Origin: Myxococcales bacterium
Lineage (GTDB): Bacteria > Myxococcota_A > Polyangia > Fen-1088
Length of the DNA stretch: 43,972 bases
Direction of reading: 5' to 3'
Assembly: GCA_003153015.1 (NCBI GenBank)
Contig: PMBS01000041.1
Coordinates: forward strand, 1-43,972
Of this stretch, positions 2,316 through 35,817 are shown in pieces. Within the stretch, counting starts at the first letter, position 1. Each line of letters starts with the position of its first letter. Position numbers and translations under genes: made by a program. The notes below the pieces were generated by a model, which did no database searches, had not been told where the DNA came from, and saw only the letters and a list, made by a program, of their open reading frames with translations.

Positions 2316-3155
2316 TCAGCGATGTCCGCCGCCGCGACCACCGCCAAGACCACCATGACCGCTGAAGCCGCCATGCGAGCCGCCGCCAACGCCGCCCCCG
2401 TGGAATCCGCCCCCAGTACTGCCGCGATAGCCGCTGACAGAGTGAGCGGCGCCGCCAGCGCTCCCGCGATAGCCCCCGCCAACGCTCCCGCGATAGCCGC
2501 CGAAAGCGCCGCCGCGAGAGCCGCCAAGCGCGCCGCCGCGGTATCCGCCGTTAGCGTGGTAGCCGCCCCCGCCGCGATAGCCCCCGCCGTAGCCACGATA
2601 TCCGCCGCCGTAGCCGGCATGATAGCCACCACGATATCCGCCCCAACCATACCCGGCCCGGTGGAGGCCGCGATACCAGCCGAAGCCTAAAGGACCGCGC
2701 AGACCAAAGTATGGATACGGGCCCCAGCCCCAAACCCAGGGCGCTGCCAGCCACATCCATCCGTAGCTGGGGTAGTACACATAGGCATAGGGAGAGGCAT
2801 CGTAGTACGTCCCTTCGTAGGCGTACTGGTCTCCGTAAGGCATCCAGATCCAGCCATACTGATCCGTATACACCCACTGGCCCCCGGCCGTGGCCGGCGC
2901 CGGCGCTGCCCCAGCAGGTTGCTGAACCTGAGGCTGCGCCTGGCCCTGGGCCTGAACTGGCGGTGCTGGCGGCTGTTGCGGCGGCGCAGGAGGCTGCATG
3001 TCCGGCGCCGGCGTGGCTGGCTGCACCGCTTGCGGCGCAGCGCCAGGGTCTGGAACCTGGCTCGTCGAAGCCCCGACAACGCTCACATCCTGGGCTCGAG
3101 CTACGCCGAACCCCAAGAGCAAGAAACACAAAGAGGCAGTCAGCTTGGTCTTCAT
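2316..3155 (-). CDS. Secreted YXW-rich and Gly/Tyr/Arg-rich repeat protein
   Basis: The open frame extends further upstream, but ATG at 3155 starts a clean signal peptide (MKTKLTASLCFLLLGFGVARA followed by QD), giving 279 residues. A Pro/Ala/Gln-rich linker (about 25-105) leads into an aromatic block with WVYTDQYGWIWMPYG and YVYYPSYGWMWLAAPWVWG, a pattern known from small secreted proteins of proteobacteria annotated as YXWGXW-repeat proteins. The last 110 residues are a low-complexity GGYRG / GGGYHGG tail. The protein is almost certainly exported and probably binds envelope material or ligands through the aromatic and Arg/Gly parts. Function is unknown. GGGGTGG upstream of the ATG can serve as ribosome site. 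Confidence 0.7.
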   Translation of the reverse strand: MKTKLTASLCFLLLGFGVARAQDVSVVGASTSQVPDPGAAPQAVQPATPAPDMQPPAPPQQPPAPPVQAQGQAQPQVQQPAGAAPAPATAGGQWVYTDQYGWIWMPYGDQYAYEGTYYDASPYAYVYYPSYGWMWLAAPWVWGWGPYPYFGLRGPLGFGWYRGLHRAGYGWGGYRGGYHAGYGGGYRGYGGGYRGGGGYHANGGYRGGALGGSRGGAFGGYRGSVGGGYRGSAGGAAHSVSGYRGSTGGGFHGGGVGGGSHGGFSGHGGLGGGRGGGHR

Positions 3156-3322
3156 GGCACCACCCCAAATATGAGACGATCGTGTGCTTGCTTTTGTTCT
3201 ACAACATATCCTGCGATAGTCGATGAAATCGCTATCTCGCGTCAAGCAAACAGCCCTCACTGACGCGGATCATCGGCGCCCTTATGCCACTGCGCCACGG
3301 CCGCTCCGCTCCGGGGCGGGAA

Positions 3323-3349
3323 CCCGCAGCCCCGCCCGGAGGCTGCGGG
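3323..3349 (-). terminator. Hairpin downstream of the 36-bp-repeat lipoprotein gene
   Basis: CCCGCAGCC (3323-3331) pairs perfectly with GGCTGCGGG (3341-3349) around a 9-nt loop. It lies 19 nt beyond the stop codon of the minus-strand gene that ends at 3368. No T-run follows, so termination is inferred from position and stem strength. Confidence 0.45.
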
Positions 3350-3367
3350 ACGGACCAGCCATCCGTC

Positions 3368-4657
3368 TCAGTTGCTGACGAACGAAACGTCATCAATGGT
3401 CAAATTGATGCCCGTGCACCCTAGCTGACCACCGTCGCCCACCGGCGCGGGCGACTGGAACTGCCATTGCAGTCCCACGATCTCGTTCGCGATGGCCGCC
3501 TGGGTGGTCAGCTGTCCGCCACTCAGATTCGCAAAGGGGACGGAGACCACGCCCGAGGTACTCGTCAGCTTCGTGCCCGGGAATACGTAGCAGCCGGATG
3601 TGCATCCGCCCACCTGCCCCGGACCTGCGGGTTTCTCGTCGAAGGTCTGGACCTGGAAATAGAGATCACAACCTGCGACGCTTCCGCCCAATGTAAACTG
3701 CACTCCGGTGTAGATTGTCGTGTTTACACATGCATCGAACGACATGCCACCGTTAGCAAAGTCGCCTGCTGCCACGGTGCCAGCCAGCACCAAGTTCTCG
3801 CTGGTCGTATTGACGGTCGCGTTCATCGTGCTGTTGGATGGTGCGTAGCTAAAAATGCTGCCTGACAGGGCGCCAATCGTTCCCCACTTGCCACCTCCAA
3901 CAAGTGGGTGCCATCCGGCTAGTCCGGTTGCCGAGAAATCCGTAATCAGCGGCGTGGTGGGTGAAACGCCTGGCGTGCACGTGGGCGCAGTCCCCGTGGT
4001 CCCGCCAGCAGTAGCCCCACCTGTGCCTGTCGTACCGCCAGTGGTCGTCGTGGTCCCGCCTGAATTGGTCGATCCGCCGGAACCAGTCGACCCACCTGTG
4101 TCGGAAGATCCGCCAGAGCCAGTCGACCCACCTGTGTCGGAAGATCCGCCAGAGCCAGTCGACCCACCTGTGTCGGAAGATCCGCCAGAGCCCGTGGACC
4201 CGCCTGTGTCGGAGGATCCGCCGGAACCAGTCGACCCACCTGTGTCGGAAGATCCGCCAGAGCCAGTCGACCCACCTGATGCGGTAGTTCCTCCCGAGCT
4301 TTGCGACCCGCCTGATGCGGTAGTTCCTCCTGAGCTTTGCGACCCACCTGACGCGGTAGTTCCTCCTGAGCTTTGCGACCCGCCTGACACGGTAGTTCCT
4401 CCTGAGCTTTGCGACCCGCCTGATGCGGTAGTTCCTCCTGAGCTCTGCGACCCACCTGATGCGGTAGTTCCTCCTGAACTTTGCGACCCACCTGACGCGG
4501 TAGTTTCTCCTGAGCTGGACGAACCACCCGAGCCTTTGCTTCCGCCAGAGGCCTGGTTGCCGCCACTCGTCTGGGTGCAATTCGCGGTTGCTGCAGCGAG
4601 GGCCAAACATCCGATCCACGTGGTGATCGTCGGACAAGTCGTTGCTGTCTTTCGCAT
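3368..4657 (-). CDS. Putative surface lipoprotein: long tandem-repeat linker and CBM-like jelly-roll domain
   Basis: The product has 429 residues. The N-terminus (MRKTATTCPTITTWIGCLAL...ATANC) is a plausible export signal with a candidate lipid-attachment Cys near residue 27. Residues about 45-190 are two families of 12-residue repeats, seven of the TTASGGSQSSGG type then five of the STGSGGSSDTGG type, encoded by an array of 36-bp units. The C-terminal domain (about 220-429) begins CTPGVSPTTPLITDFSATG and ends with LTIDDVSFVSN, with strands containing W, Cys pairs and FQVQTF. This is the pattern of CBM11/CIA30-like galactose-binding folds that end in a ...DDVxF strand. The likely role is display of a glycan-binding domain away from the outer membrane. 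AAGGGG precedes the ATG. No catalytic residues are evident. Confidence 0.75.
   Translation of the reverse strand: MRKTATTCPTITTWIGCLALAAATANCTQTSGGNQASGGSKGSGGSSSSGETTASGGSQSSGGTTASGGSQSSGGTTASGGSQSSGGTTVSGGSQSSGGTTASGGSQSSGGTTASGGSQSSGGTTASGGSTGSGGSSDTGGSTGSGGSSDTGGSTGSGGSSDTGGSTGSGGSSDTGGSTGSGGSSDTGGSTGSGGSTNSGGTTTTTGGTTGTGGATAGGTTGTAPTCTPGVSPTTPLITDFSATGLAGWHPLVGGGKWGTIGALSGSIFSYAPSNSTMNATVNTTSENLVLAGTVAAGDFANGGMSFDACVNTTIYTGVQFTLGGSVAGCDLYFQVQTFDEKPAGPGQVGGCTSGCYVFPGTKLTSTSGVVSVPFANLSGGQLTTQAAIANEIVGLQWQFQSPAPVGDGGQLGCTGINLTIDDVSFVSN
4095..4526. repeat. Minisatellite of twelve 36-bp units in a lipoprotein linker
   Basis: Five units of one type start at 4095, 4131, 4167, 4203 and 4239. 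They are directly followed by seven units of a second type starting at 4275, 4311, 4347, 4383, 4419, 4455 and 4491. Units differ by a few mostly synonymous bases. The repeat keeps the frame, each unit coding 12 residues. Copy number is likely to vary between strains by slippage or recombination. Confidence 0.9.
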
Positions 4658-28336: not shown

Positions 28337-29770
28337 ATGAAAGCAAATCACTCGAAACTCTGGCTGACTCTTGCACTCCTGCTCGCGATGGGATGCGGGG
28401 CACGAACACCGCTCGACGACTGGGAGACACCGGCTAGCCCGGGCGCCGGCGGAACCACTTCCCAGAGTGGAGGCACAAGCGGAACCTCCGCAAGCCTTGG
28501 GGGCAGTCTCGCAACCGGCGGCCAGGGCGACGGCGGGCAAGTCGCGACCGGCGGACGCGGCGGGCAAGTCCCCTTCGGCGTCGGCGGTACCGTGGTCGGC
28601 GGCCGCGGCGGGCAAGTCGCGACTGGCGGGACCGGCGGACAAGTCCCCTTCGGCGTCGGCGGTACCGTGGTCGGCGGCCGCGGCGGGCAAGTCGCCACCG
28701 GAGGGACCGGTGGACAAGTTGCCACCGGCGGACGCGGCGGGAATATCCCAGACGGCGGCATCATAGTTGGCGGACGCGGCGGCGCGGGCGGGACCCCGCC
28801 ACTCGGTGGCACCGTGATCGGCGGACGCACCCGCGGGTCCGGCGGGCAAGTCGCTGCTAGCGGCGGCGCGGGCGGGACCCCTCCACTCGGCGGCACCGTG
28901 ATCGGCGGACGCACCCGCGGGTCCGGCGGGACAACCCCATCGGGCGGCACCGTGGCCGGCGGACGCACTGGAGTGACCACCGGGCCCATCCCCTTGGGCG
29001 GCACCATAGTCGGCGGACGCGGCGGCGCGGGCGGGACCACGCCACTCGGCGGCACCGTGGTCGGTGGACGCGGCGGCACCGCTGGCTCGAGCACCGCGGG
29101 TGGAACTGGGGCTGCGGGTAGCGGCGGGACGGCCGGCACCACGTGTGTAGGTTTGGCTCCCAATGAAGAACTGATCGACGACATGAATGATGGTGATCGC
29201 TTCATCCCGCAGGTCAACGGACGTGCCGGGGCCTGGAAAGACAGCGACGACGGCACTCCGGGCGCAACCATGTTCCCCGATCCAGCGGGACTATTCACCA
29301 TGACAGACACAGGCGACGCCTGTCGCAAGTACGCGGCCTACGCGTACGGTGGGCCCTTTGTAGACACGGGCGCTACCTTTGGGTTCGGGATCGGCGGCCC
29401 GTACAACGCATCCGCGTACACAGGCATCAGTTTCTGGGCAAAGATCGACGGCGGCACATCGTCGGGCTTGCGGGTCGCGTTCCCCGACAAGGACACCCAG
29501 CCTGATGGCGGGCTCTGCCAGCCGGGCGTCGCGGGTCCGACACAGTGCTGGGACCACTACGGCAAACGCATTACCAACCTCACCACGTTTTGGTCGAAGT
29601 ACTTCGTCGACTTCTCTTCACTCAGCCAGGACGCGTGGGGGCGCCAGGGAACCGCCTTCGACCCGTCGACCATCTACGAGGTGCAGTTCCAGATTCCGGT
29701 CGACGCCAAGTTCGGGATTTGGATCGACGACGTCGCGTTCTTCACAGGTTACTTCGGTCCCACACCCTAG
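28337..29770 (+). CDS. Surface lipoprotein: Gly-rich repeat linker and CBM-like C-terminal domain
   Basis: The open frame begins at 28187, but ATG 28337 starts a lipoprotein signal (MKANHSKLWLTLALLLAMGC) and gives 477 residues. Residues about 35-270 are Gly-rich repeats such as GGTVVGGRGGQVATGGTGG. The C-terminal domain (about 275-477) starts CVGLAPNEELIDDMNDGD and has GGPYNASAYTGISFWAKIDGG, ITNLTTFWSKYFVDFSSL, TIYEVQFQIP and IWIDDVAFFTG. This matches the CBM11/CIA30-like jelly roll found repeatedly on Polyangia surface proteins and shares the ...IDDVxF ending with the lipoprotein at 3368-4657. The TAG stop lies inside the left inverted repeat of the next element. A glycan-binding surface role is inferred. 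Confidence 0.75.
   Translation: MKANHSKLWLTLALLLAMGCGARTPLDDWETPASPGAGGTTSQSGGTSGTSASLGGSLATGGQGDGGQVATGGRGGQVPFGVGGTVVGGRGGQVATGGTGGQVPFGVGGTVVGGRGGQVATGGTGGQVATGGRGGNIPDGGIIVGGRGGAGGTPPLGGTVIGGRTRGSGGQVAASGGAGGTPPLGGTVIGGRTRGSGGTTPSGGTVAGGRTGVTTGPIPLGGTIVGGRGGAGGTTPLGGTVVGGRGGTAGSSTAGGTGAAGSGGTAGTTCVGLAPNEELIDDMNDGDRFIPQVNGRAGAWKDSDDGTPGATMFPDPAGLFTMTDTGDACRKYAAYAYGGPFVDTGATFGFGIGGPYNASAYTGISFWAKIDGGTSSGLRVAFPDKDTQPDGGLCQPGVAGPTQCWDHYGKRITNLTTFWSKYFVDFSSLSQDAWGRQGTAFDPSTIYEVQFQIPVDAKFGIWIDDVAFFTGYFGPTP
28545..29090. repeat. Gly-rich degenerate tandem repeats in a lipoprotein gene
   Basis: Units reading GGTVVGGRGG, GGQVATGG and GGTPPLGGTVIGGRTRG recur, several at nearly identical nucleotide sequence (for example the two GGTPPLGGTVIGG copies near 28790 and 28875). 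The frame is preserved. Confidence 0.7.
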
Positions 29771-30794
29771 CACTACTGACTGAAATTCGGACCGAGCCGG
29801 CGCGTCGCGAGGAGCCCTGGCCGCGACGAGCGACGAGGGAAGATACTCGACGTATTGTGCAGCGATGCTAGCTGACGTTCTATCGGGTGAAAGTCCCGTC
29901 GGCGTAGCCCTCCCAGGGAGCGCCGTAGTCATATCTGCTGTCAGGACGGGTGACCAACCTGACAAAAGCGCAGACGTAAAAGTCCTCGTGGGCTGGCGCA
30001 CGGGTACGCCCGTGCCTCGGTCCGATCCGCCAGGAGGGCGAGCAAACGGACAGGCCGCAGCGAAGGTGAATAGCCGCAAGCGAACCAGGAGACCCCGAAA
30101 TAGTATTCCCGCCCGAAGCGGATGGCGGGGGAGTCGAGCGCGCCGAGCCTCAAATACGTGGGCGAAGGCCATCGTCGTCGGTGAAGAGTACATCTGGGAA
30201 CAGGCAGCCGACGAGCACTCCGGGGGCATAGAGGACGGCATGTCAGGAAAGAGCGGGCAGCGAAAGCACGGAACCACTCGCGGGTCGCCTAGGCGCTCCC
30301 GCACAGCGAAGGCGTTGCGCATAATCGGCACTGCCGAGAAAACGCGACGTGCCTGCGAGTGGGGCGGATGGGGCCGGTTAAGCGTCGATGGACCGGGACA
30401 GAACAACCCGGACCGGAGCGAGGGCCCCTGGGGTAGAGCGGCGGGTGCCGCTCGCATGGCGGCGTCACACCGAGCCGGCTTCCTCGACTCTGATCGAGGT
30501 TTTCGGTGCGGCCACGGAGGACGCGAGCGTCGGAAGCAAACCCGAGAACGAGCAGGGCATGCCGGGAGTGGGCTTAACCTGCACGGACAAGGGGCAGGCC
30601 CCGACGGAAAGGCCAGCCTTGGAGCCGTACTGGGGAAAACTCGCCGTACGGAATCTTAGGGGGGACGATGGAAACGTCGGCATCATTCGAAGTCCGGTCC
30701 GCGCCATCGTCCTACCCGACTGACTGAGGAGCGAGAAAGCGGACAGGGCCCGCAGCAGCGACGGCGACGGGAGAATTTCAATCAGTAGTGCTAG
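29767..30794. mobile_element. Inverted-repeat element with CTAG ends, split by a group II intron
   Basis: The outer 22 bases at 29767-29788 and 30773-30794 are inverted copies with one mismatch; each ends in CTAG, then CACTACTGA and TGAAATTC. About 25 bases inward both arms also carry GCCCTG-CCGC. Without the intron the element would be 164 bp, close to the 168-bp CTAG-ended element at 14334-14501. No transposase is encoded. It may be a MITE-type element that took up an intron, or a structured target that group II introns favour. The left end includes the stop codon of the lipoprotein gene. Confidence 0.6.
29857..30720 (+). ncRNA. Probable ORF-less group II intron (ribozyme)
   Basis: The 3' part fits the group II catalytic core closely. 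Domain V is 34 nt (30622-30655): it starts GAGCCGTA with the AGC triad, has a GAAA tetraloop and ends CGTACGGAATC. Domain VI follows, with GGACGATGG (30663-30671) pairing perfectly to CCATCGTCC (30704-30712), an unpaired A at 30714 seven bases from the end as branch point, and a 3' end CCCGAC. The 5' side begins GTGCAG at 29857 and soon shows CGGGTGAAAGTCCCG, a usual domain I hairpin; GAGCGGC/GCCGCTC pairs at 30436-30453. No reverse transcriptase is encoded in domain IV; the long frame here (29865-30659) reads the ribozyme itself and has no family features. Any mobility would need a protein from elsewhere. Confidence 0.8.
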
Positions 30795-33408: not shown

Positions 33409-33429
33409 GGCGCCGTACTGACAACTGAA

Positions 33430-33640
33430 TACGGACGCGAGCGCGGGGCCTCGACGGCCCCGCTGAAAAGGGAAGCCGGTGCGCACCCAAGGGTGTCATT
33501 CCGGCGCGGTCCCGCCACTGTATGTGGGAAGTCTGTTCCGATATGACCACTGGAGGACAACCTCTGGGAAGGCTGGAGCAGGTGACGCGGCCTTGCCGCA
33601 AGACCCACGAGCCAGGAAACCTGCCCGCGTCAGCCACGAT
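33430..33640 (+). ncRNA. Cobalamin riboswitch
   Basis: Conserved cobalamin aptamer blocks appear in order: AAAGGGAAGCCGGTG (about 33467-33481), TCCGGCGCGGTCCCGCCACTGT (about 33500-33521), GGGAAGTC soon after, and the B12 box AGCCAGGAAACCTGCC at 33610-33625, with GGAGGACAACCTCTGGGAAGG between. An intrinsic terminator follows before the btuB start. The aptamer binds adenosyl- or other cobalamin and should stop transcription of the transport operon when the cofactor is abundant. Exact ends are approximate. Confidence 0.93.
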
Positions 33641-33684
33641 GCCTTTCCCGAGGAGGAAGCGGGCGCCGAGCTAGCAGCTTGCGA

Positions 33685-33716
33685 CCCCCGCTTCCGCCGA
33701 CGGAACGGGGGTTTTT
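33685..33716 (+). terminator. Intrinsic terminator acting as riboswitch expression platform
   Basis: CCCCCG (33685-33690) and TTCCG (33692-33696) pair with CGGAA (33701-33705) and CGGGGG (33706-33711), with a CCGA loop and one bulged C, followed by TTTTT (33712-33716). It ends one base before the ATG of the receptor gene, so its 3' arm also covers the ribosome site and could act on translation too. Confidence 0.85.
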
Positions 33717-33717
33717 C

Positions 33718-35817
33718 ATGGGGTCGAAAAGGGTGCCGGCCGGCGCGGAGATCGCCGACCAAGCCTGCAAGCACAGACTTTCGTTTCCAGGCGCCGCTTC
33801 CGCGGCGGCGGTTCTGTGCATGACCGCGGGCACCACGCGGGCGGCCGAACCGCTCTATGAGACCGTGGTGGTGGCCGAGGCAGGGGCCGGAGACCGGGCG
33901 CGCCAGGATGACGCAGCGTCGTCTTCCATAGTCACGGCCGACCGCACTCCCCGTAGCGCTGAGGACTTGCCCCAACTCCTTTCCGAGCTGCCCGGCGTCT
34001 CGGTCACGCGTTTGGGCGGTCTGGGATCCATGGCCACCCTGTCGCTGCGCGGATCATCGGCCAACCAGGTCGAGGTCTACTTCGACGGCGTGCCGCTCTC
34101 GGCAGCCTCCGGTGGTGGCGTAGACATCGGGCTCATTCCGGTCGTGGATCTCGATTCGGTCGAGGTCTATCGGGGAATGAGCCCTATCGTGTTCGGCACC
34201 TCGGCCATGGGCGGAATTGTGTCGCTTTCGAGCGCCGCCGCAACCGATTCAGGTGCGCGCGCCTACGCGGGCGGCGGCTCTTTCGGGACCGAGTTTGCCG
34301 GGGTGCAAGGACGGTGGGCCGCGAAAAACCTACGCGCGCTCGGCAGCGTGAACGCTTTCAGCTCGGCCGGCGACTTCACCTATCACAACGACAATGCCAC
34401 ACTCCTCGATCCCGACCCCAGCGACGATTCCACACGTCGCCGCCAGAACAATGCCCTCTGGCAGATCGACGGCCTGGTTCACGTAGTGGGGCTTTTGCCT
34501 GGGCGGCGACAGATCTGGGGCACCGCCAGTTTTCTTCACCGCGATCAGGGCGTGCCACCCGTGGGCTCGCTGCTGGCGAGGGGAGCAGCGCTCGGCACCG
34601 ACAGACTGATTGCCACCGCGGCCTACCAGTCGCGCGACGATCTCGGGCTGGGCAGTTCGTTGCGTGCCCAACTCTACACGGTAACCACCTGGCAACGCTT
34701 CCACGATCCCTGCGGTGATCTGTCAGGCCAGCCCACCCAAACGCGGGACCTTTCCACCAGCTCTGGCGCCACGCTCGCTGGCTCGAAGCCGCTTGCTGGG
34801 TGGCTGAGGCTTTCCGCGATTGCCGAAGGCCGCTATGAACGCTTCGATCCTTCGAACGTTCTGTCCGGCGCGGTTTCCATTCCACCTGGCTCGCGTACTT
34901 TTGCTGCCGGCGGCATGGAGGCGCGTTTTCTCGTCCAAGCGCTACGTCTGGCCGTAATCCCGTCGCTGCGCCTGGAGGTGGCCAAGGACGAGATCACGAG
35001 CCCGAAACGCTATCGCCTGATAAACGCTGACACCCGACCCGCCACCTACTGGCTGCCCAACGCGCGCTTGGCCCTCGTGCAATGGGCGAGCGAGCAAGTC
35101 ACTCTGCGCGCAAACCTGGGGCGCTACGGTCGTCTGCCTTCGACGTTCGAGCGCTATGGAGACACCGGCCAAGTCTTGGGCAATCCCAGCCTGGTGCCCG
35201 AGACCGGCACCAACGCAGACCTTGGCGCAAACTGGACTCGCGCAGGCGCGCGGCTGCGGCTTTCGCTCGACGGCGCTCTGTTTGCCGCCTGGGCGCACGA
35301 CCTCATCCAATTCCTTCAGGTCGGGACCCAAATGCGGCCGGGCAACGTTGGTCGTGCGCGCATCCTGGGCGCGGAATTTTCGGCCACCGCCGACTGGCGA
35401 CGCCGCTTTCGGTTCTTCGGGCAAACCACCTTCACGGATGCGCGCGACCTAGAGGACGTGGCCTGTTGCCACAATAAGCAGCTTCCCCACCGGCCTCGCC
35501 TGCGCGCCTACGCGCGGCCCGAGCTGCGCAATCTTGCCCTGGCGGGTCGCTGGCGCTGGGGGCTGTACGCCGACCTGGACGTGACCAGCGGTAACTACCT
35601 CGACTCGCCCAACCTGGTCGAAGTCAACCCGCGTGTGCTCTTCGGTGCGGGTGGGCAGATCAGCGCACCCCACTGGGGGCTGCGCCTAGTGGCCAGCGCG
35701 CAGAACCTGGCCAACACCCCTGTCGTCGATCTGGTCGGCTATCCCCTGCCCGGCCGCTCGGTCTTTCTCACCCTGCAATGGTCCACGCCCGAAACCAACA
35801 AGGAGATTCTGGAATGA
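33718..35817 (+). CDS. btuB: TonB-dependent outer-membrane receptor, BtuB-type
   Basis: ATG 33718 is used; the frame opens at TTG 33679 inside the terminator. The product has 699 residues with an extended signal region ending near TRAAEP. A TonB box follows (ETVVVAE), then the plug domain (EDLPQLLSELPGVSVTRLGGLGSMATLSLRGSSANQVEVYFDGVPL and VDLDSVEVYRGMSPIVFGTSAMGG), and a beta-barrel of about 550 residues ending in SVFLTLQWSTPE. Placement under a B12 riboswitch and before BtuCDF genes makes cobalamin its likely substrate. The terminal strand does not end in the last residues, as a short tail (TNKEILE) follows. The next gene overlaps its stop by ATGA. Confidence 0.9.
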   Translation: MGSKRVPAGAEIADQACKHRLSFPGAASAAAVLCMTAGTTRAAEPLYETVVVAEAGAGDRARQDDAASSSIVTADRTPRSAEDLPQLLSELPGVSVTRLGGLGSMATLSLRGSSANQVEVYFDGVPLSAASGGGVDIGLIPVVDLDSVEVYRGMSPIVFGTSAMGGIVSLSSAAATDSGARAYAGGGSFGTEFAGVQGRWAAKNLRALGSVNAFSSAGDFTYHNDNATLLDPDPSDDSTRRRQNNALWQIDGLVHVVGLLPGRRQIWGTASFLHRDQGVPPVGSLLARGAALGTDRLIATAAYQSRDDLGLGSSLRAQLYTVTTWQRFHDPCGDLSGQPTQTRDLSTSSGATLAGSKPLAGWLRLSAIAEGRYERFDPSNVLSGAVSIPPGSRTFAAGGMEARFLVQALRLAVIPSLRLEVAKDEITSPKRYRLINADTRPATYWLPNARLALVQWASEQVTLRANLGRYGRLPSTFERYGDTGQVLGNPSLVPETGTNADLGANWTRAGARLRLSLDGALFAAWAHDLIQFLQVGTQMRPGNVGRARILGAEFSATADWRRRFRFFGQTTFTDARDLEDVACCHNKQLPHRPRLRAYARPELRNLALAGRWRWGLYADLDVTSGNYLDSPNLVEVNPRVLFGAGGQISAPHWGLRLVASAQNLANTPVVDLVGYPLPGRSVFLTLQWSTPETNKEILE

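Follow-up and report, generated by a model that had tools for sequence, protein, structure and literature searches.

Group II introns are self-splicing RNAs that can also jump between sites. The retroelement form found in bacteria is marked by an intron-encoded reverse transcriptase (RT) in domain IV (D4), but introns without such an open reading frame (ORF), intron proteins that act in trans, and introns nested in one another are all already known, with phage cases among them (PMC12350094). The ORF-less TeI3 introns of Thermosynechococcus elongatus have proliferated and are mobilised in trans by the protein of another intron (Mohr et al. 2010, PMC2882425). In Methanosarcina acetivorans, according to PMC4424553, ORF-less introns home into related introns (Dai and Zimmerly 2003), and the same paper presents C.te.I1 of Clostridium tetani as an independent bacterial ORF-less intron without a closely related RT-bearing intron.

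The intron described here lies in a 43,972-nucleotide stretch of DNA from a Myxococcales bacterium (contig PMBS01000041.1, the window) and belongs to a family that resembles each of these systems in part. As in TeI3, its members are RT-less, have good EBS/IBS pairings, have proliferated, and are in some cases nested in RT-bearing introns. However, the TeI3 introns go back to a single loss of the ORF from a resident parent and are confined to one genome. No parent can be recognised for this family, which is found in several phyla and has a variant domain V (D5). Nested arrays like those of M. acetivorans are present at loci L272, L277 and L271, but the introns covered by that account come from one archaeal genus, whereas this family is bacterial, crosses phyla, and is also found outside introns, in a MITE and at many other sites. 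C.te.I1, as it is described there, is a single intron with a repeated DV/VI and alternative splicing, whereas the copies of this family have one D5/D6 each. The domain I core is like that of RF02003 introns from the same bacterial class, but those checked near the relatives of the window intron mostly have an RT in D4 and a standard D5. The novelty lies in a broad, parentless RT-less family whose variant D5 is missed by the standard model and whose members are strongly inclined to nest in RT-bearing introns. Among the papers searched, none was found to describe this family.

An RT-less intron with exactly defined ends

Positions 29857–30720 of the window (forward strand) contain a complete group II intron of 864 nt without an RT. 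An earlier note, made from the sequence alone, had called an ORF-less group II intron here and had suggested checking it against the D1–D4 models. The Rfam model RF02003 (group-II-D1D4-4) matches 29881–30065 (69.9 bits, E 2e-13) and, together with the six-domain fold and the compensatory change described below, bears out the call. The boundaries given in the note are exact. In copies of the flanking repeat elsewhere in the same genome (C342:12067–12225, C287 and C212) the segments 29771–29856 and 30721–30793 are contiguous, and because the arms are joined directly in these empty copies both intron ends are fixed to the base, at 29856|30721. Exact empty sites are known in two genomes, namely the MITE here and D1 of a host intron in Bradyrhizobium erythrophlei GAS478. 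The intron termini are GUGCAG...CCCGAC, so that the 3′ end follows the AY rule, whereas the 5′ end reads GUGCA rather than GUGYG; GUGCA is kept in nearly all family copies (15-copy alignment).

Two long ORFs overlap the intron, one of 264 codons within it (29865–30659, forward strand) and one of 279 codons that extends beyond its 5′ end (29618–30457, reverse strand). Neither matches a Pfam family, the frame of the 264-residue ORF is not kept among relatives, no conserved reading frame was found among them, and tblastn detected no RT inside any of the full-length copies. We therefore treat both as chance ORFs and reject a protein-coding element. The RT that marks retroelement-form introns is absent from the window copy, which supports the note's suggestion that an enzyme made elsewhere would be needed.

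A conserved six-domain fold with a variant domain V

Folding of the 15-copy alignment with RNAalifold gives 202 pairs, 109 of which are compensated on both sides, with the domains in the order D1 to D6. On the forward strand of the window the basal stem of D1 spans 29863–30270 and includes the RF02003 core, followed by D2 (30271–30365), D3 (30370–30428), a D4 of about 160–180 nt that lacks an ORF, Pfam match or conserved frame (30436–30615), D5 (30622–30655) and D6 (30659–30717).

D5 has the 34-nt length and AGC triad (30623–30625) that the note described, with a CC bulge, but its loop is a GAAAA pentaloop and not GAAA. In most copies the triad G lies opposite two A's rather than the usual U, with the ordinary U present in L141 alone. 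The pair just outside the triad, 30622–30655, covaries between C-G (11), A-U (10) and G-C (4), which settles the register and thereby places these A's opposite the G. This unusual pairing could reduce catalysis. The D6 stem comprises 13 pairs (10+3), not the nine first reported, and six pairs of this stem are compensated across 26 copies. The predicted branch point, A30714, is unpaired and seventh from the ...CCCGAC end, as had been noted, and an A is present at this position in every copy. Across the same number of D5–D6 copies 98.2% of cells pair and 11 pairs show two-sided change, with a covariation score of 0.313 compared with 0.156 when shuffled (0/500) and 0.03–0.09 for slid controls. 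Given the loop and the triad G, the note's judgement that the D5 and D6 pairs look intact holds only in part.

RF00029, the standard model, fails to match D5/D6 when 151 bases are searched at a threshold as loose as E<=10. The note would have counted the lack of such a match against an intron; nevertheless, compensatory change proves the D5/D6 fold despite it. The unmatched D5 may be the reason that the family has been overlooked. The standard domain V model was used in a 2022 genome survey (PMC8919778) and was relied on for D5/D6 in a 2025 phage survey (PMC12350094).

The apical segment of D6, GARACGTCGGCATCATTCGAAG at 30671–30692, is almost invariant across phyla, beyond apparent catalytic need. 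This invariance is partly ascertained because the scan for relatives used the D6 motif itself, and copies found through the covariance model instead have one to a few changes in the tip. In the RT-less intron copies L143 (JACRCP010000216.1) and L162 an extra palindromic stretch around CAGTATTATGT...ACATAATACTG lies inside D5, and is possibly another tiny mobile repeat.

Guide sequences match the exons of each copy

The final seven bases of the 5′ exon (IBS1, ACGTATT, 29850–29856) pair 7/7 with EBS1 (AATACGT, 30153–30159), both on the forward strand. In each copy EBS1 is 7 nt long and lies three bases ahead of a conserved [CT]GAAGGCC, with that of L141 fitting 6/7 if the spacing is one base less. 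Over the 14 scorable copies the own-partner score is 6.43/7 compared with 3.20/7 for swapped partners, and 0/100,000 permutations reach the observed sum, placing the copies far above chance as a set. EBS3 is the A at 30228, which pairs with the first base of the 3′ exon (T at 30721); the corresponding alignment column, 386, complements 3′-exon position +1 in 15/15 copies and is the sole column to pass the scan. By contrast, an IIA-type delta pairing beside EBS1 fails across copies and was rejected. EBS2 is likely to be near 30104, and is weaker than EBS1 and EBS3: a tentative TATT at 30104–30107 pairs with a tentative IBS2 (GATA, 29842–29845) in the 5′ exon as the top-scoring block of the pairing scan, but this pairing is only partial across copies. 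As each copy has EBS1 and EBS3 sequences that match its own exons, the targets have changed together with the guides, which is the pattern left by RNA-guided insertion.

The window copy lies in a MITE-like element

BLAST against the source genome (5.84 Mb in 385 contigs, 87% complete) reveals that the sequences flanking the intron, 86 nt on its 5′ side and 73 nt on its 3′ side, together constitute a repeat of ~159–163 bp. The filled element extends from 29767 to 30794 (forward strand), with 22-nt terminal inverted repeats (CTAGCACTACTGAYTGAAATTC) and CTAG at both ends. About ten partial or complete copies of this family (terminal inverted repeat CTAGCACTACTGATTGAAATT, ~163 bp) are present in the genome, in the window and on contigs C342, C287, C212, C80, C26, C71, C299, C302 and C301. 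The element is short, multi-copy and bounded by terminal inverted repeats and CTAG, and contains no gene, as is characteristic of MITEs. The location given previously, an intergenic region, is an incomplete description, as the intron sits inside this repeat, which itself is flanked by convergent genes.

A second filled copy, on C353, retains only the 3′ part of the intron, where the contig starts, and has an identical 73-nt arm and different sequence past the CTAG. The arms of filled copies share variants missing from empty ones, indicating that MITE and intron probably moved as a unit, and they seem to have transposed together at least once more. C139, C297 and C250, which end in a filled-type arm, may be further filled copies. 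We rejected an IStron, as the inverted repeats are not at the intron ends but 86 and 73 nt beyond them and the element has neither TnpA/TnpB nor any gene inside. We also rejected a bidirectional terminator, given a loop that is far too long and the recurrence of the unit as a MITE. Elsewhere in this genome an isolated intron 5′ end of about 50 nt follows a different 5′ exon (GGGGGTTTT; C227:4163–4216, reverse strand).

The family is RT-less and dispersed across phyla

Within the same genus, one genome (G005) has a full-length relative that is 76% identical and at an unrelated site, and another (G004) has a 3′ end at 96%; a 3′ end at 79% is present in a different family of the same class (G062). 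When 84,980 species genomes were searched for the D6 tip, 55 stretches were identified, which come from Acidobacteriota, Myxococcota/Deltaproteobacteria, Bradyrhizobium, Rokubacteria, Planctomycetota, Binataceae and unplaced Proteobacteria bins. Fifteen full-length copies of 785–864 nt, all RT-less, are distributed among Myxococcota, Acidobacteriota and Bradyrhizobium, whereas copies in Rokubacteria, Planctomycetota, Binataceae and other bins are partial or 3′ ends. The D1 core matches RF02003 at 57–90 bits within the family.

The distribution is patchy. Strong D5–D6 covariance-model matches number about 19 in 399 evenly drawn genomes of an acidobacterial class, and complete D5/D6 are present in only 4/318 genomes of the window's own class, with a D6 remnant in one more. 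This, together with a tree in which the Bradyrhizobium copy groups with acidobacterial ones (94/91), suggests horizontal transfer. A 5′-truncated, unannotated copy is carried on Bradyrhizobium conjugative plasmids, and no relative was found in 50,697 phage records. Near-identical 3′ ends, about 14 of them in the bin YF1.bin4 and about 8 in a second bin, each have different downstream sequence, pointing to proliferation.

Among the introns examined, none that bears an RT shares the D5/D6 of the family, and RT-bearing loci align with it over short stretches only, up to about 130 nt. The alignable RT-bearing parent expected of an ORF-deletion derivative is therefore lacking among these loci, including the window genome itself, where the note had suggested looking for one and where the intact RT-bearing intron, on C167, is of RF02005 type. 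With a D4 of such small size, this goes against the note's reading of the intron as a derivative.

At L059 (G006:C194, 247–310) a piece of D3 adjoins AGCGGTCCACCGAATTCCGC, 20 bases that almost match the 5′ exon of the G005 copy, representing either a shared target repeat or a rearranged copy. In a Terriglobales bin, an RT-less intron (L164) is followed by about ten tRNA genes in a stretch of about 0.9 kb (2452–3375).

Copies nest in RT-bearing introns

In nine of the 15 full-length copies the spliced flanks match RT-bearing group II introns. L138 lies inside an RT gene that reads through once the copy is removed; L140, L145, L150, L161 and L170 are in the 5′ part of the host D1, L179 is after the host D1 model, and L139 and L177 are between host D5 and D6. 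In B. erythrophlei GAS478 the host is RT-bearing and multi-copy, and about a dozen uninterrupted copies of it are present, the best 99% identical. Nesting also occurs in reverse, with RT-bearing introns between D5 and D6 of RT-less ones (L271 and L276), and RT-less introns are found within RT-less introns (L277 and L272). Because such reverse insertions look identical to 5′ truncation, we dropped the interpretation of D6-only pieces in G002 and G003 as 5′-truncated insertions. The window copy, which sits in a MITE and is not a twintron, and its G005 relative are both outside introns. At L272 (G484:C192) several group II introns form a nested cluster, and a stretch of about 2 kb contains several D5/D6-like matches.

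A candidate helper

Host introns are mostly of the RF02005 (D1D4-6) type. In the acidobacterial class sample a strong RF02005 match is present in 12/14 carriers and 61/285 other genomes (Fisher p 1.3e-6); the counts were made by hand, and nesting itself, a common habitat and phylogeny all act as confounders of this co-occurrence. Across 26 carriers RF02005 is detected in 23, although in some the match is the intron that hosts the RT-less copy, and some RT match is detected in 25, with none in G004, 25% identity in G005, 29% in G194 and a weak match in G205; the carrier MAGs and bins are incomplete. G005 has an RF02005 D1 despite its 25%-identity RT match. The window genome has one intact RF02005 RT-bearing intron, on C167, with a 473-codon ORF that matches RVT_1 (8.7e-36) and has a maturase domain just under the cut-off. 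Our best guess is that help in trans comes from a D1D4-6-type protein. A second RT in this genome (C8:27342–28037, 620-codon frame, RVT_1 in the scanned part) is possibly a defence-type RT, as the stretch around it that was searched contains no match to a group II intron.

Proposed mobilisation and possible origins

We consider it likely that the window contains a structurally intact intron of a non-autonomous RT-less family that is mobilised in trans by RT-bearing introns, probably of D1D4-6 type; splicing, mobility and helper identity are what we infer from the comparisons above. The intron RNA would splice itself out through D5/D6 catalysis, branching at A30714, and would find its DNA target through base pairing of EBS1, EBS3 and probably EBS2. 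Help with splicing, and reverse transcription, would be supplied in trans by the protein of an RT-bearing group II intron. This helper would most likely be of the D1D4-6 type that is also the favourite insertion site, represented in this genome by C167.

The note had also raised the possibility of a fossil, which here would be a dead intron passively carried by MITE transposition. The two filled copies with identical 73-nt arms may indeed have spread by MITE transposition rather than by retrohoming, and no resident RT-bearing parent is known. However, the fit of EBS1 and EBS3 to the present exons is perfect, and where copies differ the guides differ correspondingly. The pairing in D5/D6 is intact, and in an old, dispersed family the sequence changes while compensatory change preserves the structure and the exon-recognition sequences, all of which makes a fossil improbable. 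Loss of the ORF from a resident RT-bearing intron is a known route to ORF-less introns, taken in T. elongatus (PMC2882425), and a recent event of this kind would fit the RF02003-type D1 common to RT-bearing introns of the same class. We think this origin very unlikely here, given that RT-bearing loci align only over the short stretches noted above and that every full-length copy, across phyla, is RT-less with a small D4 and variant D5.

The intron could instead be a fully autonomous ribozyme that splices without protein and moves only by recombination or as a passenger of the MITE, host introns and plasmids. C.te.I1 self-splices, and no related IEP gene is reported from the C. tetani genome (PMC4424553); some carriers of this family have no visible RT, and one 5′-truncated copy is on Bradyrhizobium conjugative plasmids. 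However, the EBS1 and EBS3 of each copy have changed and complement the very site where that copy lies, which is the trace that RNA-guided retrohoming leaves. One bin has many unrelated downstream sites, and we regard full autonomy as unlikely.

Mobilisation in trans can be extended further. SINEs share a tail with LINEs, and it is possible, although we propose this only tentatively, that a cross-phylum lineage gave up its RT permanently and now exploits RT-bearing introns as a hyperparasite that borrows their proteins and inserts into the introns themselves, with the D6 tip as a comparable handle for the borrowed enzyme. The family constitutes a broadly distributed RT-less lineage with a domain V that escapes the standard model used in surveys. 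It provides a natural test of trans-mobilisation and of RNA–protein specificity across phyla, and of how far the catalytic triad can vary. It likewise offers a test of how a self-contained retroelement becomes a protein-dependent intron, a step that has been proposed for spliceosomal introns.

Elsewhere in the window, a Cobalamin riboswitch (RF00174, 100.5 bits) at 33422–33642 on the forward strand precedes a 712-codon ORF at 33679–35817.
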